From: Thermoplasmata archaeon
GTDB taxonomy: Archaea > Thermoplasmatota > Thermoplasmata > GCA-020350865
Assembly (NCBI GenBank): GCA_020351895.1
Contig: CP070672.1
Span: forward strand, 1,530,910-1,541,351
Length of the DNA stretch: 10,442 nucleotides
Direction: 5' to 3'
Numbering within the stretch: the first letter of the stretch is position 1; the number at the start of each line of letters is the position of its first letter. Both the position numbers and the translations under genes were made by a program. The notes beneath the pieces are model-generated. The model was not told the origin of the DNA. It was given only the letters and a program-made list of their open reading frames with translations, and ran no database searches. Of the stretch, positions 2 to 10,442 are shown piece by piece.

Positions 2-3000
2 AATTCGGTAACCTATGCAGGTTTACCCCTTGTGGATGGTACTGACCATTGGTTTTCGGTGAGGGTTTTCGATGGATTTGAGTGGAGCCTGTGGAATGAA
101 ACCCAATTTCACATGAATGCACTTTCCGAGGCCCAAGGATTGACAGTTCAAGGATATTCCTTGGGTACACAAGGAATAATGCATATAACGGATCACACAC
201 CAGATTTGGGTTGGTCGTTTTTTGATTCTGAAATTGGTGATTCGCAACAGGAATACGAAATCAGAGTGGGCACAGGATCTGGTCTCTCAGACATGTGGAC
301 TTTTGGACCTTCTTCAGGAGCAACTTCAATAGAGGTATACGCAGGTTTAACCTTGCTTGACGGATCCGATTATTGGTTTGGCATCCGGGTTTACGATGGC
401 TACGAATGGAGCCTGTGGAATGAGACACAATTTCATTTAAATTCACTTCCTCCCGCTCCTGTTCCCCCTCTAAGTCCGCCTGATGACAGCAACGTTCCCA
501 GCAGCCCTGCCCAAACCATAAGCTGGACGGCAGGGGGAGCCGATATCGAGGGAGATACCATAACCTATTGGTGGTATGTTGATTTCGACAATCCACCCAT
601 TCTCCCGTATCTGGCAAATGGAACCACAACTGGACTTTCGTCCGCATCATTTTCAACTTCGCCTGCAACTGATTATTATTGGTATGTCAATGCATCCGAT
701 GACTGGGAATGGAACACAACAATTGTATGGAACTTCACAACCTCTGCAATCGTGAACAATCCACCCGAAGCATTGGATCTTGCAGTTTCGGGATTCTCTG
801 AGGGAACAAACGGTATCATGCATATCACAGACCACACTCCACAACTGGAGTGGATATTCTCAGACCCAGATGGTGGGGACTCCCAACAGCAATATGAGGT
901 AAAGGTTGGTACTTCCCCGGGTCTTTCAGATATGTGGTCACCTGGTATCCAGGCAGGAGGGATAAACTCAGTAATGTATGGAGGACTTATTTTGCAGGAT
1001 GGAGTGGACTTTTGGTTTTCCATAAGGGTGAATGACGGGAATACATGGAGTGAATGGAATGAGACACAGTTTCATATGAACAGTGTAGAGGCTCGAGATT
1101 TGTTGGTCCAGGGATATACAACAGGCACTCTGGGAATCTTACATATCACTGACCATACTCCTGATCTGGGATGGTCCTACTGGGATTTGGAGATCGGGGA
1201 TTCACAAGGGCAGTACGAGATAAGAGTGGGGTCACAAACCGGTTTTTCAGATATGTGGTCCTTTGGACCTACGGCAGGACCCTCATCATCTGAAATTTAT
1301 GCAGGCTTGACTTTACTTGATGGGAAAGACTATTGGTTCGGTATCAGACTCCATGACGGTTATGAATGGAGCCAATGGAACGAAACCCTGTTTCATATGA
1401 ATGCCCTTCCTCCGGCTCCTGTTCCTCCTTTAAGCCCTCCCGATGATTCAAACATACCAAGCAGTCCAGCTCAGACCCTAAGTTGGAGTGCAGGAGGGGT
1501 CGATTCCGAGGGAGATACCATCACATATTGGTGGTATGTTGACACTGACAATCCCCCAATTCCACCTTATCTTACCAATGGCACCACAACCGGATTATCT
1601 TCATCTTCATTTACCACTTCCCCAGGGACTGATTACTATTGGTATGTCAATGCAACAGATGGCTGGGAATGGAATACTTCCATTCTATGGAATTTCACAA
1701 CATCTGCTGTAGTAAATAATCCACCAGAGGCATTGGACCTCTCCGTCTCAGGATACTCAGAAGGAACTTCTGAAATCATGCATGTCTTGGATCACACGCC
1801 AGATATGTCTTGGTCCTTCTTTGACTCAGATTTCGGGGATTCCCAACAGCAGTACGAGGTAAGAGTGGGCACACAATCGGGTTTCTCTGACATGTGGGCT
1901 CCAGGACCCCAGGTTGGTGCTGGTAATACTGAAACTTATTCTGGATTACTATTGATTGATGGAGTTGACTACTGGTTCGGAATCAGGGTCTTTGATGGGA
2001 ACACATGGAGCCTATGGAATGAAACCCTGTTTCATATGAACGCTCTACCACCAATTCCCATTCCACCACTCAATCCTCCTGATGATGCGAACATCCCAGA
2101 CAGCCCTGCTCAAACATTGAGCTGGACAGCAGGTGGAGCCGACTCAGAGGGTGATACCATCACCTATTGGTGGTATGTAGATACCGACAACCCGCCCGTT
2201 ATTCCCTTTATTGCCAATGGAACAACAACTGGTACCTCATCCAATTCATTTTCCACTGCCCCTGGGACAAACTATTACTGGATAATCAACGTCACTGATG
2301 GATGGGAATGGACAACAACCATCGTCTGGAATTTCACGACAACAGGATCCGTGAACATGCGCCCTGAGGCACGGAACTTATCGGTATCTGGATTTGGCGA
2401 GGCAACTACAGGTATTATGCATATTATGGATCCAACACCAGATTTGGGTTGGTCCTTCTTTGATTCAGATATTGGGGATTTCCAACAGCAGTTTGAGGTG
2501 AGGGTGGGGACCGCATCAGGGCTTTCCGATATGTGGGCCCCTGGACCCCAGGTAGGTGGTGGAAACAGCGTGGTTTATGCAGGTTCTCCTTTAGTGGATG
2601 GCACAGACTACTGGTTCGGAATTCTTGTCTACGATGGTTTGGATTGGAGCCTATTAAATGAAACAATGTTTCATATTAACTCCCAGCCTGTTGCTCATAG
2701 CCTAACAGTTGCAGGTTTCTCTGAGGGCTCGCAGGAGATAATGCACATCATTGACCATACTCCTGATTTGGGCTGGTTGTTCTCAGATTCTGAATCAGGG
2801 GATACCCAGGTTCAGTATGAAATCAGAGTAGGGACATCATCAGGCCTTTCTGATATGTGGGCCCCCGGAATTTCGGCCGGATCAGTAAACAATGCAGTTT
2901 ATGGAGGATCGGCACTATTGGATGACACAGACTATTGGTTTGGAATTCGGGTTTACGATGGCTATGAATGGAGTATCTGGAATGAAACTCAGTTTCACTT

Positions 3001-4939
3001 AAACAGCCTTGAGGTCCAGATCCTTAAGGTACAAAACTTCACAGATGGGTCTCAGGGTATATTGCGTATAACGGATCATACTCCTTATCTTAACTGGAGC
3101 CTCTGGGATGGCGAGGGAGATTCACAAACACAGTATGAAATCCGCGTCGGAACAGCACCAGGCCTTTTGGATATGTGGTCAATTGGACCACTTCCAGGTG
3201 CCACAACCTCGGAAATTTATACAGGCTTACCCTTGATGGACGGGTCTGATTACTGGTTTGGAATCAGAGTGTATGACGGCTATGAATGGAGTGTCTGGAA
3301 CGAAACGCAGTTTCATATGAATAGTGTCGAGGCCCGAAACCTGACAGTGCAGGGCTTTGCAGGTGGAAGCAGTGGAATATTGCACATTACAGACCATACC
3401 CCGGATCTTAGTTGGTTCTTCTATGACTCAGATTTGGGAGATGTACAGCAGCAGTACGAGATCAGAGTTGGAACAGCATCTGGTCTTTCTGATATGTGGG
3501 CACCTGGACCCCAGATAGGCGGAGAAAACAACGTGGTTTATGCTGGTTCTACATTAATGGATGGAACCGACTATTGGTACGGGATTTTGGTGTATGATGG
3601 AATAGAATGGAGCCAGTTAAATGAGTCCATGTTTCATGTGAACTTAAAACCCGAGGCTCAAGATCTATCTGTCTCAGGATTCTCAGATGGCACAGCCAAT
3701 ATCATGCACTTAATAGACCACACCCCTGATTTGGGCTGGACATTTTCCGATTTTGAGGTAGGTGATACACAGATGGAATACGAGGTAAGAATTGGGACAT
3801 CACCAGGCTCCTCTAATTTGTGGGCAGCAGGGCCTCAATCTGGAGCACAAACGAGCGTAGTATACGGAGGAATGACATTATTGGATGGAAATGATTACTG
3901 GTTCGGTATCCGAGTTTTCGATGGCTATGAATGGAGCGCGTGGAATGAAACTCAGTTTCACATGAATTCACCACCCCCAGCTCCTGTTCCACCTATAAAT
4001 CCATCTCACGACTCAGTGATTCCTAGCAATTTACTACAAACCCTAAACTGGACCGAGGGTGGTTTCGATTCAGAGGGCGATACCATCACATATTATTGGT
4101 ATATCGACACAGATAATCCCCCAGAAGCACCATATTTGGCAAGCAACTTCACATCAGAATTATTTTCCACAACTTTTGTAACCTCTCCTTCCACAACATA
4201 CTTTTGGCATGTGAATGCAACAGATGGCTGGGAGTGGAATTCCACCATAATCTGGAATTTCACCACTGAAAGTCCAGTGAACAATCTCCCTGAAGCCAGA
4301 GACCTAAAAGTTGCGGGATTCGCCCAAGGAATCCCAGAGATCATGCATATTACGGACCATTCCCCGGATCTTTCCTGGTCGTTTTTCGATTCAGATAATG
4401 GTGATATCCAGCAAAGTTACGAGATAAGGGTGGGCTCAGCATCAGGTCTATCAGATATTTGGGCACCTGGACCCTCTGATGGAACCATAACCACTGTCAC
4501 ATACTCTGGTTCAGATTTACAAGACGGATTCGATTATTGGTTTGGAATCAAGGTGCACGACGGAAAGGACTGGAGTCTATGGAATGAAATACAATTTCAT
4601 ATGAATGCACCTCCAGAGCCGATAAACATGATGGTTGAAGGAAATTCTGAGGGAACCTCAGAGATAATGTCTATTTCAAACCCTAATCCAGAGCTCGCCG
4701 GGTCCTTTACCGATCCTGAGAGTGATCTAACTGGTATCATGTATGAGATAAGAATCGGTTCAGCTGAAGGTCTATCAGATATGTGGGCATCAGGACCCAA
4801 TGAAGGTGCATTAGATTCTGTATCCTATGATGGACAAATATTGCAGGATGATACAGACTACTGGTTTGGCTTGAGGATCTTCGATGGTTTCGAGTGGGGT
4901 GCCTGGGAGGAGATCGTATTTCATATGGATTTCCCACCC
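2..4939 (+). repeat. A-type protein repeats: 11 full copies plus 1 partial, FN3/Ig-like
   Basis: Boundaries read in frame: partial A0 2-127; A1 128-445; A2 767-1087; A3 1088-1405; A4 1727-2044; A5 2366-2689; A6 2690-3010; A7 3011-3328; A8 3329-3652; A9 3653-3970; A10 4292-4615; A11 4616-4939. Lengths are 318, 321 or 324 bases (106-108 residues). Shared landmarks are TPDLGWSF, then an acidic loop such as DSDIGDSQQ, YEIRVGT, SDMW, a variable loop, VYAG, DYWFGIRV, DGYEWS and WNETQFHMN. The order of motifs (P-x-L-x-W, Q-x-x-Y-x-I-x-V, Y-A-G, Y-W-x-x-x-V, W-S-x-W, F) matches the Ig/FN3-like domain at the N terminus of GH78 rhamnosidases as I know it. That is a resemblance, not a search result. Copies differ by many synonymous changes, so they are old. 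A11 is the most divergent. Confidence 0.92.
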
Positions 4940-5899
4940 ACGCTTGACTGGACGGGAGAAGCCGATTATATCTTTGACGGGATATCTCCATGGATTGGAA
5001 ACACTTCATCAACATTTGTCTACAAGATAAAATATACACAACCTGGTAATTTCCCTCCAGCAACTGGAGATCCAAAACTTCATATCTTAAAGGATGGAAA
5101 TGAGGTATCAGGAAGCCCATATTCGATGACATTTGAAAGTGGATCCTATTCCCAGGGAGCGATATTCAGCTTTTCCCTTAATCTCACCGAGGGAATAAAC
5201 TACTCTTATTACTTCACAGCATCTGATGAGAAAGGAAGAGTTGCACAACCCACAGAAGAGAAGGATGGTCCCGATGTTATCGATGATACGAAAGAAATAA
5301 TTCGCCCTCTTCCTCCCACAAATACGTCTGTGGCAGCTCCAATTGAGAGGGGAAAATTGACAATCAATTGGGAAGCCACTCAAAGCGAGGATATAGCTGG
5401 ATATAAAATATACAGATCAGTCAATCAGATCGATTATGAGCCTGTGGGGACTGTTGATCCTCAGATATTGTCCTTTGAGGACTCCGATCTTGACGATGGC
5501 AAAACATATTACTATGTAGTAGTGACATTCGATTCAGAGGGTGTTGAATCCATAGATTCCAATGAAGTACATGAAACCACGATACTAGCACCCGAGGAGA
5601 AGCCCATAGATAAAGAAGATGAGTTTCAATTCAGCCTTTGGTTGATCCTCCCCATAATAGTTGTCATTGTACTGATTCTTATATTGATAATTCTTGCCCG
5701 TAAAAAGGGGCGAAAGGAAGAAGAGCCAATTCTCAGGGGAAGTACACCACCCTCACTTGATTCCGAAGAATCACCATCAGAAGAAAGAGAAAAGCCGTTA
5801 GAGCCAGAGGATCAGTTGGAAGATGATTCCACTACAAATGATAATGTGCAACAAATACCCAATGAAGATGAAAACCTTGCTCCTCCCAATGATGAATAG
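2..5899 (+). CDS. Giant repeat-containing cell-surface protein, C-terminally membrane-anchored (5' partial)
   Basis: The frame is open to the left edge. The GTG at 32 is only a valine inside a repeat: the ten codons before it (2-31) complete the repeat sequence (NSVTYAGLPL), so start and signal peptide lie outside. Visible part is 1965 residues, stop TAG 5897-5899. Order: eleven full plus one partial A repeats with four B repeats interleaved (2-4939); an Ig-like domain (about residues 1647-1770); a typical FN3 domain (about 1771-1859, with GYKIYRS and YYYVVVTFDSEG); one hydrophobic helix (about 1878-1899) followed by ARKKGRK; and an acidic tail to 1965. The positive residues after the helix place the tail in the cytoplasm and the repeats outside. 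Role is inferred: a stalk, S-layer-associated or adhesive protein. I see no enzyme domain in the visible part. A catalytic domain could lie upstream. Confidence 0.93.
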   Translation, partial: NSVTYAGLPLVDGTDHWFSVRVFDGFEWSLWNETQFHMNALSEAQGLTVQGYSLGTQGIMHITDHTPDLGWSFFDSEIGDSQQEYEIRVGTGSGLSDMWTFGPSSGATSIEVYAGLTLLDGSDYWFGIRVYDGYEWSLWNETQFHLNSLPPAPVPPLSPPDDSNVPSSPAQTISWTAGGADIEGDTITYWWYVDFDNPPILPYLANGTTTGLSSASFSTSPATDYYWYVNASDDWEWNTTIVWNFTTSAIVNNPPEALDLAVSGFSEGTNGIMHITDHTPQLEWIFSDPDGGDSQQQYEVKVGTSPGLSDMWSPGIQAGGINSVMYGGLILQDGVDFWFSIRVNDGNTWSEWNETQFHMNSVEARDLLVQGYTTGTLGILHITDHTPDLGWSYWDLEIGDSQGQYEIRVGSQTGFSDMWSFGPTAGPSSSEIYAGLTLLDGKDYWFGIRLHDGYEWSQWNETLFHMNALPPAPVPPLSPPDDSNIPSSPAQTLSWSAGGVDSEGDTITYWWYVDTDNPPIPPYLTNGTTTGLSSSSFTTSPGTDYYWYVNATDGWEWNTSILWNFTTSAVVNNPPEALDLSVSGYSEGTSEIMHVLDHTPDMSWSFFDSDFGDSQQQYEVRVGTQSGFSDMWAPGPQVGAGNTETYSGLLLIDGVDYWFGIRVFDGNTWSLWNETLFHMNALPPIPIPPLNPPDDANIPDSPAQTLSWTAGGADSEGDTITYWWYVDTDNPPVIPFIANGTTTGTSSNSFSTAPGTNYYWIINVTDGWEWTTTIVWNFTTTGSVNMRPEARNLSVSGFGEATTGIMHIMDPTPDLGWSFFDSDIGDFQQQFEVRVGTASGLSDMWAPGPQVGGGNSVVYAGSPLVDGTDYWFGILVYDGLDWSLLNETMFHINSQPVAHSLTVAGFSEGSQEIMHIIDHTPDLGWLFSDSESGDTQVQYEIRVGTSSGLSDMWAPGISAGSVNNAVYGGSALLDDTDYWFGIRVYDGYEWSIWNETQFHLNSLEVQILKVQNFTDGSQGILRITDHTPYLNWSLWDGEGDSQTQYEIRVGTAPGLLDMWSIGPLPGATTSEIYTGLPLMDGSDYWFGIRVYDGYEWSVWNETQFHMNSVEARNLTVQGFAGGSSGILHITDHTPDLSWFFYDSDLGDVQQQYEIRVGTASGLSDMWAPGPQIGGENNVVYAGSTLMDGTDYWYGILVYDGIEWSQLNESMFHVNLKPEAQDLSVSGFSDGTANIMHLIDHTPDLGWTFSDFEVGDTQMEYEVRIGTSPGSSNLWAAGPQSGAQTSVVYGGMTLLDGNDYWFGIRVFDGYEWSAWNETQFHMNSPPPAPVPPINPSHDSVIPSNLLQTLNWTEGGFDSEGDTITYYWYIDTDNPPEAPYLASNFTSELFSTTFVTSPSTTYFWHVNATDGWEWNSTIIWNFTTESPVNNLPEARDLKVAGFAQGIPEIMHITDHSPDLSWSFFDSDNGDIQQSYEIRVGSASGLSDIWAPGPSDGTITTVTYSGSDLQDGFDYWFGIKVHDGKDWSLWNEIQFHMNAPPEPINMMVEGNSEGTSEIMSISNPNPELAGSFTDPESDLTGIMYEIRIGSAEGLSDMWASGPNEGALDSVSYDGQILQDDTDYWFGLRIFDGFEWGAWEEIVFHMDFPPTLDWTGEADYIFDGISPWIGNTSSTFVYKIKYTQPGNFPPATGDPKLHILKDGNEVSGSPYSMTFESGSYSQGAIFSFSLNLTEGINYSYYFTASDEKGRVAQPTEEKDGPDVIDDTKEIIRPLPPTNTSVAAPIERGKLTINWEATQSEDIAGYKIYRSVNQIDYEPVGTVDPQILSFEDSDLDDGKTYYYVVVTFDSEGVESIDSNEVHETTILAPEEKPIDKEDEFQFSLWLILPIIVVIVLILILIILARKKGRKEEEPILRGSTPPSLDSEESPSEEREKPLEPEDQLEDDSTTNDNVQQIPNEDENLAPPNDE
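446..4291 (+). repeat. B-type protein repeats: 4 copies of 107 residues, interleaved with A repeats
   Basis: Four copies, each exactly 321 bases: B1 446-766, B2 1406-1726, B3 2045-2365, B4 3971-4291. Each starts with a proline-rich linker (PPAPVPPLSPPDD or a variant). Next come a WTAGG-like strand, DSEGDTITYWWYVD, DNPP, a Ser/Thr-rich strand, YYWYVNATDGWEWN, a WNFTT strand, and a VNNPP linker leading into the following A unit. The pattern of strands ending in aromatic-rich YWYV and WNFTT fits another Ig/FN3-like fold, seen widely in archaeal surface proteins. B copies follow A1, A3, A4 and A9. B4 is the most divergent, for example IPSNLLQ where B1 and B2 have PSSPAQ. Confidence 0.9.
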
Positions 5900-6030: not shown

Positions 6031-6327
6031 ATGTCCACAACCAACATATCAAAGGAAAAGATCATGGACTATCTGGATAAAACCGAAAGAGGCCTAGCCA
6101 AGGTTAAAATTTTGGCACCAGACAGGTCCCATGCAAAGAAGATTGCAGAGGATTTTTTAAATATGGCCATCTCCTATTTCTCGGATGCAAAGCACTTTTT
6201 CGAAAGGGAGGAGTATGTTGATGCCTTCGCCTGTGTGAACTATGCCCATGGATGGCTGGATGCAGGGGTGAGGTTTGGTTTGTTTGATGTGGGTTCCGAC
6301 GATAAGCTGTTTACGTTGGCTGAGTAA
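6031..6327 (+). CDS. DUF357 family protein (small archaeal helical protein)
   Basis: A 98-residue soluble, mostly helical protein. I recognise the DUF357 signature: a helix with KIAEDFLNMAISYFSDAKHF, then a D/E-rich turn (EREEYVDAFA) and the family's characteristic YAHGWLDAGVRFGLF near residues 71-85. The length is near the family's usual size (roughly 75-100 residues). The family is essentially archaeal and its biochemical function is unknown, so none is assigned. The ATG follows a clear TATA-like box with a short predicted leader. The gene stands alone, 131 bases after the surface-protein stop and 219 bases before the redox operon, with its own promoter, so it is probably monocistronic. Confidence 0.88.
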   Translation: MSTTNISKEKIMDYLDKTERGLAKVKILAPDRSHAKKIAEDFLNMAISYFSDAKHFFEREEYVDAFACVNYAHGWLDAGVRFGLFDVGSDDKLFTLAE

Positions 6328-6546: not shown

Positions 6547-7383
6547 TTGAAAAAGGAAAAGCGGCATCCTGAGATCACTAGAAGAGAATTCATGGGAAGC
6601 ACTTGGAAACTTTTGAATGTTGGTGCATTCATCGCATTGGGGGGTCATCTCGGCTCACTTGCCGTTACCTCTATTTCTTCGGGACATCCGGATTCTTTGA
6701 CATGTTATGAATGCAGGGCCTGTGCCTCACCCTGTCCATGGAGGTTGGATCCATCTGGCTATCTTGTTGCTGCTAGGGTTAACAACCCCAATAGGAGAAT
6801 GCTGGCACAGTACAACATAAGACGATATAACAGGCTAATTGGAAACAGAGAGGAAGAAAGGAGGATGGATATTGACACACTTCATGGTCGGGATCCATAT
6901 ATGAAAGTAGTGATAGGGACCGTTAAAGAACGGGAACCTTTGAATCTTTTTGCAATGGATGGAGATCTCAGAGATCACCTTGTTCCTGGTACAGTTTCGG
7001 AGGAGATAAGGAGAACTTTTATCGACTATAGGTGGGCAATATCAAGTAAGGCAGTTGTGACCCAAATAGACGGGTCCAATTGGGAAATCTTTGACGATCC
7101 TGAGATATTTCGGATCCAAGATAATGGATTGACTCTCGAAGTTACAGGTGAGGATAAAGAGTACGATAAAAAGAATCCCATGCAGGCAACGGCTGCAAAG
7201 AAGGAATTGAAAAAACTAAAGGATAAGGGAGAGGAGGCTGAGTTGACAGATATATATGAAATGCGGGCCAAGGACTCCGCGTTCTATGATCCACTTTGTG
7301 CCAGATGCGAACCTGCCTGCCCAGTTGATCTTCCTATAACAAAATTCATTCGAGATGTGAAAGCTGATGAGAAATACAGATAA
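6547..7383 (+). CDS. Tat-exported iron-sulfur protein with split cluster motifs (7 cysteines)
   Basis: 278 residues from a TTG start. The N terminus is a twin-arginine signal: TRREFMG at residues 11-17, then a hydrophobic stretch to about residue 41, so the protein is exported folded with its clusters. Straight after comes a complete [4Fe-4S] motif, C53-x2-C56-x2-C59-x3-C63-P. About 190 residues without cysteine follow, including a highly charged stretch (EDKEYDKKN, KKELKKLKDKGEEAE). A second motif, C251-x2-C254-x3-C258-P, lies near the C terminus. These seven are the only cysteines, so the second site is one short of a standard [4Fe-4S] site. The first motif with DPSGYLVAARVNNP resembles HdrC-type proteins. 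It is first in the operon, 25 bases before the next gene. Role inferred: extracytoplasmic electron carrier of a membrane redox complex. Confidence 0.85.
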   Translation: MKKEKRHPEITRREFMGSTWKLLNVGAFIALGGHLGSLAVTSISSGHPDSLTCYECRACASPCPWRLDPSGYLVAARVNNPNRRMLAQYNIRRYNRLIGNREEERRMDIDTLHGRDPYMKVVIGTVKEREPLNLFAMDGDLRDHLVPGTVSEEIRRTFIDYRWAISSKAVVTQIDGSNWEIFDDPEIFRIQDNGLTLEVTGEDKEYDKKNPMQATAAKKELKKLKDKGEEAELTDIYEMRAKDSAFYDPLCARCEPACPVDLPITKFIRDVKADEKYR

Positions 7384-7408
7384 ATTACAGTAAAAGAAGG
7401 CGAAAAGA

Positions 7409-7990
7409 ATGGTGAAAATGCCAACCCCTATCGATAGAAGAAGGTTCATGAAGCATCTGGGTATTCTGGGCTTTGCTGGTGTTCTGGGAATGGGTATCGG
7501 AGAGATATTCTCTCCTACTGAATCCGATCTTATCGAGGCCGCTGCAAAAACCGAGATAGCCAGCAGACGGAAACTGATATGGGCTTCTCGACAGGATGCG
7601 GAGGAGGGAGATCCCGATAAAACTCTTACCGAGGCAAAATCAGGAGGTTTTCCCTTCATCAATAGGAGGGCTTGTGCATATCATCTGCCAAACCTAGAAG
7701 CCGGGGAAAATGATGCCCTTGTGTACGAGGACATAACCGACGATAATCAGCAGGATATTCATTTCTGCAGGGGGCCTTGTGTTGATGTGTGCCCTGTGGA
7801 TGTCCTGAATATAAGAACTTCTTCGGATGAAGCCGATAAAAATAGACGTTTACCGGGTTTAACAAGAAAATCAGCAGATGATGATCTAGAGAGAGATTGG
7901 GGCAATCCACAGACAGAATCAGGCTGCATAGGATGCCAGAATTGCTTCAAGATGTGTGGCTATGATGCCATTCAATGGGTCAATCCCTGA
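7409..7990 (+). CDS. Tat-exported ferredoxin-type protein, NapG/DsrO-like
   Basis: 193 residues. IDRRRFMKHLG at residues 8-18 followed by a hydrophobic run to about residue 31 is a twin-arginine signal. No clear AxA cleavage site follows, so it may stay as a membrane anchor. Eight cysteines: C89; C120-x3-C124-x3-C128-P; and C173-x2-C176-x2-C179-x3-C183-G. The last group is a normal [4Fe-4S] motif. The middle group has CxxxC spacing and probably uses C89 or a cysteine of the last group, as in two-cluster ferredoxins. Eight cysteines fit two [4Fe-4S] clusters. Start: ATG 7409 has a GAAGG eight bases upstream; ATG 7418 is an alternative, preceded by GGTGA at only two bases. It lies between two other Tat ferredoxins, 11 bases before the next gene. 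Likely an extracytoplasmic electron-transfer subunit; the partner is unknown. Confidence 0.85.
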   Translation: MVKMPTPIDRRRFMKHLGILGFAGVLGMGIGEIFSPTESDLIEAAAKTEIASRRKLIWASRQDAEEGDPDKTLTEAKSGGFPFINRRACAYHLPNLEAGENDALVYEDITDDNQQDIHFCRGPCVDVCPVDVLNIRTSSDEADKNRRLPGLTRKSADDDLERDWGNPQTESGCIGCQNCFKMCGYDAIQWVNP

Positions 7991-7994
7991 GGTG
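7989..7994 (+). promoter_or_regulatory. Shine-Dalgarno site that sets the third ferredoxin start at 8002
   Basis: GAGGTG overlaps the preceding stop codon (TGA 7988-7990) and ends seven bases before ATG 8002. The longer frame from ATG 7975 has no comparable site and would put extra residues with a cysteine before the Tat motif. Confidence 0.6.
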
Positions 7995-8001
7995 TATATG
8001 G

Positions 8002-8451
8002 ATGGCCATGAATAGACGATCGTTCGTAAAAATGCTGGGCGTGGCCGGCGCCTCGCTGCTCGTTTCCCTGGGACTTCAGAGCAGTGGAGTGAACAGAGTA
8101 AAGGCCGAAAAGAGTTTGATTCCCGGTGCAGGGGGCCTCGAAAAAGAGGAGTATCAAAAAATCGACAGTGATAGCTTTATCGGGCTCTGCTCAAGATGTG
8201 GTGTATGTATCAACGCTTGTCCATTTAAGGCCATCAAATCCAAGGAGATATTCTATCCTTCCTTGACAAGAGCCACGAGGGAAAAGTGCCCAGGTTACGA
8301 AACATGTGGCGTGTGTCTTGCTAACTGCCCAACCGATGCTTTGGGATTGGCATATGAGCCCCTTGGTGGAACCCCAGGTACCGAGAAATCACAGCTGTGG
8401 AACGGACCGACTCTGAGGCATGAAAGAGATATCATAGGACAAAATAGGTGA
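8002..8451 (+). CDS. Tat-exported 2[4Fe-4S] ferredoxin, NapG/MauM-like
   Basis: 149 residues. The start is taken at ATG 8002 because GAGGTG lies seven bases upstream and this places NRRSFVKMLG at residues 4-13, a normal twin-arginine signal, with hydrophobic residues to about 25. A VKA site near 33-35 could be the cleavage point. Cluster motifs are complete: C63-x2-C66-x2-C69-x3-C73-P, and C96-x5-C102-x2-C105-x3-C109-P. This matches the layout of small Tat ferredoxins such as NapG/MauM and DsrO, which pass electrons between a membrane quinol or cytochrome subunit and a partner outside. It is the most conventional of the three ferredoxins here. It ends five bases before the HdrC-like gene, whose ribosome site overlaps this stop codon, so the two are probably translationally coupled. 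Confidence 0.88.
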   Translation: MAMNRRSFVKMLGVAGASLLVSLGLQSSGVNRVKAEKSLIPGAGGLEKEEYQKIDSDSFIGLCSRCGVCINACPFKAIKSKEIFYPSLTRATREKCPGYETCGVCLANCPTDALGLAYEPLGGTPGTEKSQLWNGPTLRHERDIIGQNR

Positions 8452-8455
8452 ATAT

Positions 8456-8992
8456 ATGCTTAATATATGGGATGAATGGAATGTTTTTGCTGCCATCGCA
8501 ATGATCTTGGCATCGGTTCCGTTTCTCATCATGCTGTACGCCAGTGTAAGGGGTCATGAGGGGACCATACTCTGCATGCAGTGCCAGCAATGCGTTGCAG
8601 TTTGTCCTGTGAGGGCTGCTCAACCGGACAGATACATGGGCCCTTTAGGAATAGAGGTGACATCCAGATCCGGCACCAAGGAAAGGGCAGAGGAAGGTGG
8701 CTTGTTCTCATGTACATCATGCATGAGCTGCGTGGAGGCTTGTCCTAGAGGATTGAACGTGAAACATGATATGGATAAATTCAGACATTCCTTGGCAAAA
8801 GAAGGAATGGGGCAGATGGATGCTCATAAACACATAATAAACATGGCTTCGAATTACGGAAATGTATTTGATAAGGAACCATCAGAACTTCCTGATATAA
8901 AAACCCAAAAGGAGACTATAGTCAAATTTCTAAAAGGCTTTGCAAAGATAACGAAGTACGAGGATTTCGAGATAGGAGAGGAGAACAAGTGA
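8456..8992 (+). CDS. Membrane-anchored HdrC-like 2[4Fe-4S] protein
   Basis: 178 residues. One transmembrane helix at about residues 10-31 (VFAAIAMILASVPFLIMLYA) follows an acidic N terminus (WDEWN) and precedes VRGH, so the iron-sulfur domain is predicted to be cytoplasmic by the positive-inside rule. Two complete motifs follow: C40-x2-C43-x2-C46-x3-C50-P and C86-x2-C89-x2-C92-x3-C96-P. The CMQCQQC...CPV and CTSCMSC..ACPRG pattern with a helical C-terminal domain is typical of HdrC and of the iron-sulfur half of HdrD/DsrK/GlpC proteins. In that family it relays electrons to a CCG-domain partner, and the next gene encodes one, overlapping by four bases. AGGTGA, ending on the previous stop codon, is a ribosome site four bases before the ATG. 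The membrane helix is unlike soluble methanogen HdrC and suggests a membrane-bound complex. Confidence 0.88.
   Translation: MLNIWDEWNVFAAIAMILASVPFLIMLYASVRGHEGTILCMQCQQCVAVCPVRAAQPDRYMGPLGIEVTSRSGTKERAEEGGLFSCTSCMSCVEACPRGLNVKHDMDKFRHSLAKEGMGQMDAHKHIINMASNYGNVFDKEPSELPDIKTQKETIVKFLKGFAKITKYEDFEIGEENK
8980..8983 (+). promoter_or_regulatory. Shine-Dalgarno site for the GTG start at 8989
   Basis: GGAG ends five bases before GTG 8989, within a purine-rich GGAGAGGAG (8975-8983). The start overlaps the preceding TGA stop as GTGA, indicating coupled translation of the HdrC-like and HdrB-like subunits. Confidence 0.6.
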
Positions 8993-9789
8993 CTGAGAGG
9001 GTTACAAAACCTGTAATCGACAGCAGAACTGCCAAGGAGTGGGGTAGATTCGTTCTGTACGAAGGTTGCACAATGCCTAGAAGGATGGTGGGAAGCAGAT
9101 ACACAACAAGATTCGTTTTAGACAAATTCAACTTCGATTATACTGTCCTTGATAAATCAAGATGCTGTGGAGCACCTGTGATGAGATCGGGAGGTGAGGA
9201 TGTCAGCCTTGAGTGCAGGATGTACAATCTCGATCTCGTGAAGAAGGAGGGAATCGACCAGATCGTTTCTGGGTGCCCTGGATGTGGCTCGCAGCTTAAA
9301 ACCGAAGAAGCCGAGAAGATGGGAATACATGTATATCATTTAATAGAGGTCCTCTACGACCTGGCAAAAAACGGTGAAATCTACCAGAAGGACCTAATGC
9401 GTCCGATTCCGAAGTTAAAGGTTACTGCCCATTATCCTTGCCATATGCACCGGGGAATGCTCATCGATGCAAGAAAGATTCATGAAACCATTGTAACCGC
9501 CTTTCCGAACCTCGAATTTATTGAGATGGAGGATCCTGACAGATGTTGCGGCGCTGGGGGAGGGGTTCGGGCATCACAAAAAGAACTATCGTACACCATC
9601 AGAAGGGAGAAACTGGAATGCATCAAGGAGACTGGTGCCGATATCGTAATTGCAGCCTGCCCTTTCTGCGAGCTACAGATCGATGAGGGTCTGAGGACTG
9701 AATTGAAAACTGGCGCAAGATCCATCACACCCCAGAGCATGATAGCAATGTTCTTCAAAGACATAGGTCAGGAGGTGGCAAAGCTTTGA
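8989..9789 (+). CDS. HdrB-like (Fe-S)-binding protein with two CCG domains
   Basis: 266 residues, GTG start. Two cysteine-rich CCG domains (PF02754 type) are visible and intact: C27, CCG at 59-61 and C96-x2-C99 in the first; C151, CCG at 186-188 (CCGAGGG) and C224-x2-C227 in the second. In methanogen HdrB such motifs hold two non-cubane [4Fe-4S] clusters that reduce the CoM-S-S-CoB disulfide. In GlpC, LldE/LutA and DsrK relatives they serve other redox reactions. Length is slightly below HdrB (about 290-300). No membrane segment, so it is cytoplasmic, docking on the membrane-anchored HdrC-like protein encoded just upstream. Its substrate cannot be read from the sequence: the window has no HdrA and no methanogenesis gene, so a disulfide or persulfide substrate is only a guess. 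Overlaps both neighbours by four bases. Confidence 0.88.
   Translation: MTERVTKPVIDSRTAKEWGRFVLYEGCTMPRRMVGSRYTTRFVLDKFNFDYTVLDKSRCCGAPVMRSGGEDVSLECRMYNLDLVKKEGIDQIVSGCPGCGSQLKTEEAEKMGIHVYHLIEVLYDLAKNGEIYQKDLMRPIPKLKVTAHYPCHMHRGMLIDARKIHETIVTAFPNLEFIEMEDPDRCCGAGGGVRASQKELSYTIRREKLECIKETGADIVIAACPFCELQIDEGLRTELKTGARSITPQSMIAMFFKDIGQEVAKL
9771..9777 (+). promoter_or_regulatory. Strong Shine-Dalgarno site selecting the TTG start at 9786
   Basis: GGAGGTG, an almost full complement of the 16S 3' end, ends eight bases before TTG 9786. The rival ATG at 9801 would be 23 bases away, so TTG is the better start even though it is a rarer codon. Confidence 0.65.
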
Positions 9790-10145
9790 TCTTCGAGGGT
9801 ATGTCCTTGGAAAACAGCCTCATAATAATAGGACTCTTAGTCCTACTCGGTTTATTCTTTATTTTGCAGCTTAAGATGATGTTCTTTCCTCAAATGAAGG
9901 GGAGATTGATAGAGTTCGAGCCCATTTTCGATGGAAACTGCAATTCTTGCAGGGGGAAACGTAAGGGATTAACCAGCATTCCCGTTAAGGTGGAGACTGA
10001 TGAAGGCAAGATCATCTCGGCTGAAATCAGCTGTTGCACGATTTGCATTGAGAAAATCGGTGTGGGATCGAGAATCGGCGTGACGAAGATAGGTGACAGG
10101 CTCATTGTGCAGGCTTGTGCCAATATAAGGGGCAGGAACACTTAA
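9786..10145 (+). CDS. Small membrane protein with CxxC and CCxxC pairs, unknown function
   Basis: 119 residues, unrecognised. The TTG start overlaps the HdrB-like stop as TTGA and has a strong GGAGGTG site. An ATG six codons in (9801) is possible but less well placed. One transmembrane helix spans about residues 11-29, followed by K30, K38 and R40, so the C-terminal domain should face the cytoplasm. That domain has C52-x2-C55, then 27 residues, then C83-C84-x2-C87, plus C111 near the end. The two CxxC pairs could bind zinc (ribbon-like) or a metal cluster. The glycine/valine-rich end (VGSRIGVTKIGDRLIVQ) looks like a small beta-barrel, as in NfeD-type domains, but this is a weak resemblance. 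Its position between HdrB-like and a membrane subunit suggests an assembly or docking role for the complex. Confidence 0.8.
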   Translation: MIFEGMSLENSLIIIGLLVLLGLFFILQLKMMFFPQMKGRLIEFEPIFDGNCNSCRGKRKGLTSIPVKVETDEGKIISAEISCCTICIEKIGVGSRIGVTKIGDRLIVQACANIRGRNT

Positions 10146-10156
10146 ATTGAAAATAT

Positions 10157-10161
10157 GGTGA
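10157..10161 (+). promoter_or_regulatory. Shine-Dalgarno site for the last, partial gene
   Basis: GGTGA ends six bases before ATG 10168. An ATG overlapping this site (10155) is in another frame that soon stops, so it is not a start. Confidence 0.55.
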
Positions 10162-10167
10162 AAAAAT

Positions 10168-10442
10168 ATGGTGGTATTTGGATTTGAACTATGGTTCATC
10201 ATAGGGCTCATCGCCCTGGTACTGTTCTTCCTCGTAATAGTGGCATCACTTTTAGGATTCATCCCACAGGACCGTCTGCCAATTCAATCGGCTTTGGTTC
10301 TCACTGCATTCATAATCGCAATCCTGGCTTTCATAGGTCATCTCCTGGATCCTTCCATAGGACAAATAGGCTTTATCGATCTTGAAGGCATGATAATCAT
10401 CCATCCCATAACTGCTCTTGCTGCAGGATTCTTGGCTGCTGG
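10168..10442 (+). CDS. Multi-spanning membrane protein, possible cytochrome-b-like subunit (3' partial)
   Basis: The frame runs from ATG 10168 to the right edge without a stop (91 full codons visible). The start has GGTGA six bases upstream and lies 22 bases after the previous stop. It reads MVVFGFELWFIIGLIAL and is strongly hydrophobic: helix 1 about residues 8-32, helix 2 about 40-60, helix 3 beginning about 75 (MIIIHPITALAAGF) and running off the edge. H58 lies at the end of helix 2 and H79 near the start of helix 3. Histidines placed like this are typical heme-b ligands, and a cytochrome b or quinone-binding membrane subunit (as DsrM/NarI/HdrE) is what the operon needs. That identity is an inference from context and two histidines, not a recognised family. 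The overlapping open frame at 10191-10385 is a proline/histidine-rich shadow. Confidence 0.75.
   Translation, partial: MVVFGFELWFIIGLIALVLFFLVIVASLLGFIPQDRLPIQSALVLTAFIIAILAFIGHLLDPSIGQIGFIDLEGMIIIHPITALAAGFLAA

Follow-up and report, generated by a model that had tools for sequence, protein, structure and literature searches.

A conserved gene cluster of Thermoplasmata that may encode a membrane-bound electron-transfer complex, with a transporter-fold subunit bearing four invariant cysteines

The window analysed here is a stretch of 10,442 nucleotides from a Thermoplasmata archaeon (contig CP070672.1), which ends on the right in a cluster of genes for iron-sulfur (Fe-S) and membrane proteins; the FdA gene of this cluster lies on a contig of 4,229,406 bases. 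An earlier reading of the letters of the window, hereafter the original prediction, had described seven tightly packed genes, and all seven open reading frames (ORFs) are present in the ORF list of the window, on the + strand between positions 6547 and 10442:

FdA, 6547-7383, + strand, exported Fe-S protein of 278 residues with a TTG start
FdB, 7409-7990, + strand, Tat-signal ferredoxin of 193 residues with 8 conserved Cys
FdC, 8002-8451, + strand, Tat-signal ferredoxin of 149 residues with 8 conserved Cys, its start checked against the sequence
HdrC-like, 8456-8992, + strand, protein of the TfrB N-terminal type with one N-terminal transmembrane helix and 2x4 Cys
HdrB-like, 8989-9789, + strand, protein of the TfrB C-terminal type with two complete CCG motifs
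P6, 9786-10145, + strand, protein with one transmembrane helix, an OB-like barrel and CxxC-x28-CxxC
P7, N-terminal 91 residues, 10168-10442 (the gene is cut by the window end), + strand, two-repeat membrane protein of ion-transporter fold

From FdA to P7 the intergenic spacing is 25, 11, 4, −4, −4 and 22 bases, in agreement with the coordinates first reported. Only 91 residues of P7 are in the window, and its full-length nature is known from relatives alone. The set of seven has to be extended, as in relatives P7 is followed by P8, a further NapH-like subunit, mostly fused to a GltD-like flavoprotein, which lies outside the window and was characterised in the loci of these relatives.

A pattern-based scan of species genomes returned three loci: L001 in Thermoplasmata archaeon bin33 (genome G001), L002 in Methanomassiliicoccales archaeon bin396 (G002) and L003 in Thermoplasmata archaeon SG225.bin14 (G003). 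Searches with FdA gave strong matches in 2 of 400 genomes drawn from the class of G001, where another 10 matched weakly (19-22 bits), in 2 of the 3 genomes of its order, and in 1 of 12 from the class of G003. With P7, matches were obtained in 3 of 389 genomes of the phylum (G003, G440 and G444; G001 and G002 were absent from the matches, presumably because they were not drawn), and in 2 of 5 genomes from the class of G440. The cluster is therefore rare, yet it reaches three classes of the phylum in the grouping used by the search tool. Taking equal contig size as a proxy for the same contig, and using the first 31 P7 rows, the protein lists of FdA and P7 had 7 contigs in common, those of P6 and P7 also 7, and those of FdA and P6 10.

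The order FdA-FdB-FdC-HdrC-HdrB-P6-P7-P8 is contiguous in G001 and G002, and the 4-base overlaps HdrC/HdrB/P6 of the window are found in both. In G440 the order is kept, with P7 encoded by two genes (P7a and P7b) and a small unassigned ORF ahead of P8. The short contig of G444, cut at both ends, has the same order from FdB to P8, inside which its locus (L061) ends. In G003 the genes are on two contigs, one of which begins with FdA-FdB-FdC, while the other has HdrC-HdrB-P6-P7a-P7b-NapH. Two Thermoplasmata lineages therefore share the full order, which a third has in two blocks. This recurrence of FdA and of the gene order in related genomes goes beyond chance; an order unique to one genome, which would have spoken against the original prediction, is not what was found, since G001, G002 and G440 all have it, and G444 too over the extent of its contig. 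The G440 proteins are 45% (FdA), 37% (FdB), 46% (FdC), 53% (HdrC-like) and 57% (HdrB-like) identical to those of the window. The cluster-ligand cysteines of these five proteins are conserved among the window, G001, G002, G003 and G440 (and G444 for HdrC and HdrB), except at FdA position 248.

Family scans confirmed ferredoxin domains among the window proteins, with 7 Cys in FdA and 8 each in FdB and FdC. FdC (24.3 bits) and FdB (17.4 bits) both exceed the cut-off of the Tat signal model TIGR01409 (16.7 for FdB). FdA has no match to this model; it carries an RR signal with a conserved hydrophobic segment, followed by the motifs CxxCxxCxxxCP and DxxCxxCxxxCP. TatC was detected in 4 of the 5 carrier genomes, the exception being the fragmentary G444, and was not found when searched for in the non-carrier G004. 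All three proteins are thus predicted to be exported by a twin-arginine (Tat) system, FdA by its RR motif only. The hydrophobic segment of FdA (residues 16-47) is about as conserved as the first cluster region: in an alignment (A1) of 28 of the 64 FdA matches, mean majority frequency is 0.86 in each, with 11 of 32 and 22 of 43 columns invariant, respectively. This suggests that the segment stays in place as a membrane anchor and is not cleaved off as a signal would be. Position 248 of FdA is an Asp in 62 of the 64 matches and a Cys in one (in the last, the motif was not found); G440 also has a Cys. This exchange suggests that Asp supplies the fourth ligand to that cluster. A poorly conserved insert that separates the two cluster motifs (residues ∼121-235, window 6907-7251) is present in some relatives and missing in others. 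A rubredoxin-like insert was seen in FdB of G440 (L060:4712-5419; NF045768, 1.2e-4, below cut-off), a single genome, too few to build on.

The HdrB-like protein matches PF02754 (CCG) in two stretches, at 113.6 bits, with the CCG residues C27, C59-C60, C96/C99 and C151, C186-C187, C224/C227; no transmembrane segment was found when looked for in it. The HdrC-like protein has 8 Cys. The best NCBIfam match of both is TfrB (4.2e-16 and 58.6 bits for HdrC-like, 1.6e-49 and 168.9 bits for HdrB-like), each far below the cut-off of NF004898, 385 bits. With TfrB as the top match of both, a split TfrB-type module is the most fitting name for the pair; this corrects the original prediction, in which the split itself was right. 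The score of the HdrB-like protein with the HdrB model TIGR03288 is also below cut-off (111.2 for 345.15 bits). MCR was found in none of the six genomes searched, so a methanogenic heterodisulfide is unlikely to be the HdrB partner. Three of the carrier genomes are rich in CCG proteins: matches to the HdrB-like alignment at E 1e-20 or better occur at 10 places in G001, 8 in G002 and 6 in G003. Taken together, Tat signals (RR only for FdA), PF02754 and the conserved order bear out the three exported Fe-S proteins and split HdrC/HdrB redox set of the original prediction.

P8 of L001 (753 residues) consists of a NapH-like part, then ferredoxin-type domains, then a GltD-like flavoprotein. The first scores 85.4 bits (4.5e-24) with TIGR02163, below the cut-off of 213, as does the NapH-like protein of locus L041 (92.8 bits). 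The last resembles NADPH-dependent glutamate synthase subunits (2.8e-139; TIGR01316, 401 bits, below the cut-off of 471.75). The same fusion is found near full length in G002 (78% identity) and G440 (49%); of the 4 loci in which P8 is complete, 3 thus encode it with a GltD-like flavoprotein attached. The G003 protein has the NapH-like part only (2.4e-26; 47% identical to L001 P8 over residues 1-307), meaning that the NADPH-type module is missing from the G003 cluster. As for P6, its CxxC-x28-CxxC is invariant across the 41 sequences of alignment A10, and two P7 homologues (P0161 and P0177) carry its domain as a fusion in front of P7a.

P7 had been described as a histidine-bearing membrane protein. 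It is a membrane protein indeed, but what the window holds is the N-terminus of a protein of ion-transporter fold with four invariant cysteines. Structural matching with P7 of relatives gave the INDY/ArsB ion transporter fold, in two repeats and over the full length, with the two hairpins and two broken helices that characterise DASS-like folds in these repeats. Cysteines C141, C185, C433 and C477 are present in all 80 aligned homologues; one is located at each of the four helix breaks, and they are related by the repeat symmetry. The repeats share 99 of 222 aligned positions (45%). The cysteines lie in the motifs MPCGR and ASCGPS, MPCGR occupying both hairpin tips in place of the SNT motifs. 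In PMC9098524, SNT motifs are defined as the hairpin-tip signature of DASS proteins, and VcINDY has Na+ sites there; by helix order, the P7 cysteines would map to the two clamshells that hold Na1 and Na2 in VcINDY.

The P7 alignment (A9) comprises 78 of the 120 listed homologues (460 were found), plus L001 and L002; most of those left out were near-duplicates, fragmentary sequences or half proteins that carry an ectodomain. Over the 120, both motifs occur twice in 83, both once in 31, two and one times in 4, and two and zero times in 2. Among the last six, P0093 is a truncated fragment and the other five are in A9 with all four cysteines, which means that the search pattern was too strict. Where two genes, P7a and P7b, encode P7 (in G003, G440 and G444), they still lie between P6 and NapH. 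A large N-terminal domain is frequent on P7a (L041:7928-9649, L060:7650-8900), CARDB in L041 and a beta-helix (PF13229) in P0130 and P0138. This domain is presumably extracellular, which would place the N-terminus of P7 outside.

How does this set compare with known systems? DsrMKJOP, Hme and related CCG complexes combine exported ferredoxin(s), a membrane part and a cytoplasmic CCG protein, all of which the cluster has as well. It differs by its separate HdrC and HdrB, its three ferredoxins, and the ion-transporter-fold protein, P6 and NapH polyferredoxin (mostly with a flavoprotein domain) that it adds, and by having no cytochrome b or NrfD/DsrP that we could see. Scores are low, 30.2 bits for HdrB-like with DsrK (cut-off 400) and 14.3 for FdB with DsrO (cut-off 200). 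It had been envisaged that DsrM, NrfD or DsrP, a molybdopterin enzyme, HdrA or hydrogenase genes might follow to the right. None of these, nor a cytochrome b, was seen beside the cluster in L001, L002, L041 and L060, as judged from ORF lists and Pfam scans of ten ORFs adjacent to P8 or beyond it; Pfam scans of P7 and/or P8 from the same loci showed neither DsrM nor DsrP. In the ten ORFs, Pfam recognised regulators, a KaiC-type ATPase, domains of surface proteins and others unrelated to the cluster; some gave no match.

TfrB, the Fe-S subunit of CoM/CoB thiol:fumarate reductase, is the best NCBIfam match of the HdrC-like and HdrB-like proteins, but these are two genes here, below cut-off, and no TfrA partner was seen in the cluster. 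HdrABC differs likewise: no HdrA was seen, by eye, among the ORFs of the cluster, and HdrB scores below cut-off. With NapGH the cluster shares a NapH-like membrane polyferredoxin and a Tat ferredoxin (FdC is weakly NapG-like, 29.8 bits for a cut-off of 269); scores remain below the NapH and NapG cut-offs, no Nap reductase was seen alongside, and three of four loci encode NapH as a fusion with GltD. For ANME archaea and Archaeoglobus, NapH homologues have been reported (PMC9012536 and PMC4543118). P7 shares its fold over the full length with the DASS/CitMHS/ArsB superfamily, and differs by MPCGR and ASCGPS, with invariant cysteines, at hairpin tips and loops, the location of the SNT motifs and Na+ sites of VcINDY.

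Rnf and Nqr offer a parallel for P7. In RnfA-RnfE and NqrD-NqrE, according to a review (PMC12174285), four inner helices are interrupted and carry one Cys each, which together hold an intramembrane [2Fe-2S] cluster, and these subunits are likened to Na+/solute symporters. P7 is alike in its four cysteines on four broken, symmetry-related helices, and the cluster in its halves on separate genes (P7a/P7b in G003, G440 and G444), its pyridine-nucleotide module and its many Fe-S clusters. P7 has another fold, however, L001 P7 does not match PF02508 (RnfA/E), no Rnf-type subunit was seen in the cluster, and the Fe-S cluster of P7 is putative. The gene set thus matches no known complex tested, in line with the original prediction. 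Its modules are known; the combination, above all P7, is new as far as a full-text search of open-licence literature reaches.

Starting from the genes, their order, their motifs and the predicted folds, we infer assembly into one complex, a cofactor in P7, NADPH as donor, an outward direction and ion coupling. We tentatively propose, as a reading that falls a little short of an even chance, that the genes encode one membrane-bound electron-transfer complex, linking NADPH and a CCG thiol-disulfide site inside to exported ferredoxins outside, and possibly coupled to ions. The redox gene set, conserved in order, is observed; its products would form the complex. In the cytoplasm, the flavoprotein domain of P8, where present, would oxidise NADPH; HdrB, which has two CCG sites and would be fed by HdrC, would exchange electrons with a thiol/disulfide or similar partner. 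The membrane would be crossed by P7 and the NapH-like helices, the four cysteines of P7 forming a symmetric redox or metal site mid-membrane, most likely an Fe-S cluster. Outside, FdC, FdB and FdA would receive the electrons, which would then go to an external carrier. Flow the other way may also occur; outward flow is favoured by analogy, given the NADPH-type flavoprotein and the presence of a NapH-like protein together with Tat ferredoxins. The transporter fold of P7 raises the possibility that electron transfer is tied to the movement of ions, as it is in Rnf/Nqr. The Rnf-like layout of the cysteines, the location among genes for Fe-S proteins predicted on both sides of the membrane and the fixed slot between P6 and NapH suggest, again by analogy, a role of P7 in electron transfer. 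In the same sense, PF02508 was found in none of the five carrier genomes (G001, G002, G003, G440 and G444) and twice in G004, the one non-carrier compared, which belongs to the order of G001 and G002; in so small a sample this absence is only suggestive. A more precise version, which we regard as unlikely, is that the four cysteines hold one Fe-S cluster between the repeats, and that an elevator movement gates transmembrane electron transfer and couples it to an ion.

Several observations weigh against a single electron-transfer complex. The P7 fold is typical of solute transporters; ArsB and a sulfate carrier tie for its best structural match. The P7 family is also listed in Altiarchaeota, Deltaproteobacteria and Acidobacteria, with single-chain homologues in several phyla, and no FdA or P6 match was named from these three groups, in searches that were word-limited and left most matches without a name; P7 may act alone there. 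The first CxxC pair of P6 is altered in G440 and G444, which are not among the A10 rows. The ferredoxins can be encoded apart, on a separate contig in G003, and NapH by itself could carry electrons.

The main rival, to which these points on P7 lend some weight and which we nevertheless hold to be somewhat unlikely, makes P7 a Cys-dependent carrier of a soft solute (an arsenite-like metalloid, thiosulfate or another sulfur compound, or a thiol), itself passing no electrons, while HdrCB, NapH and the ferredoxins oxidise or reduce the solute or its product. The 45% repeat identity and the symmetric set of four cysteines suit a symmetric ligand, P7 is linked to P6 and NapH in a conserved manner that includes P6-P7a fusions, and, besides HdrB, the cluster holds no obvious substrate-handling enzyme. 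The two contigs of G003 could also be taken to mean that two independent modules are neighbours, one for electron export (FdABC and NapH-GltD) and a separate one made of HdrCB-P6-P7. This is improbable, as NapH of G003 stays with HdrCB-P7, away from FdABC, all eight genes are contiguous in G001, G002 and G440, and HdrC, HdrB and P6 overlap in the window, G001 and G002. Last, the genes could encode no more than a lineage-specific form of the DsrMKJOP/Hme or HdrDE complexes, with the same logic of exported ferredoxin, membrane subunit and CCG protein; this appears very improbable with DsrK and DsrO so far below their cut-offs, no cytochrome b/NrfD gene seen, and a membrane part made of P7 and NapH.

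The surroundings of the cluster yielded a few further observations. A DUF357 protein (PF04010, 4.5e-28) is encoded ahead of it at window 6031-6327, with a similar ORF in L001 and L002. Beside the latter, an msrB-like gene was recognised by eye on the opposite strand in both loci; none is among the listed ORFs of the window. Further upstream lies a giant repeat-rich surface protein (window 2-5899, L001:1266-7898, L002:2325-8993), whose N-terminal region in L001 and L002 shows, by eye, a GCTCH motif, an unusual heme-like CXCH. In G440 alone, a single genome and too few to build on, the upstream region (L060:1-3907) encodes activases of the acyl-CoA dehydratase/benzoyl-CoA reductase type (TIGR00241, 1.3e-80) and a DsbD/ArsG-like permease.

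If the proposed electron-transfer complex is right, these archaea would have an undescribed route for electrons between cytoplasm and surface, encoded by a cluster devoid of cytochrome or Rnf subunits, and a common solute-transporter fold would have been turned into an electron-transfer subunit. Should P7 itself prove to be the conduit, it would be convergent, as a redox pump, with RnfA-RnfE/NqrD-NqrE, and several phyla would have homologues of it that now go under the name of 'hypothetical protein'.

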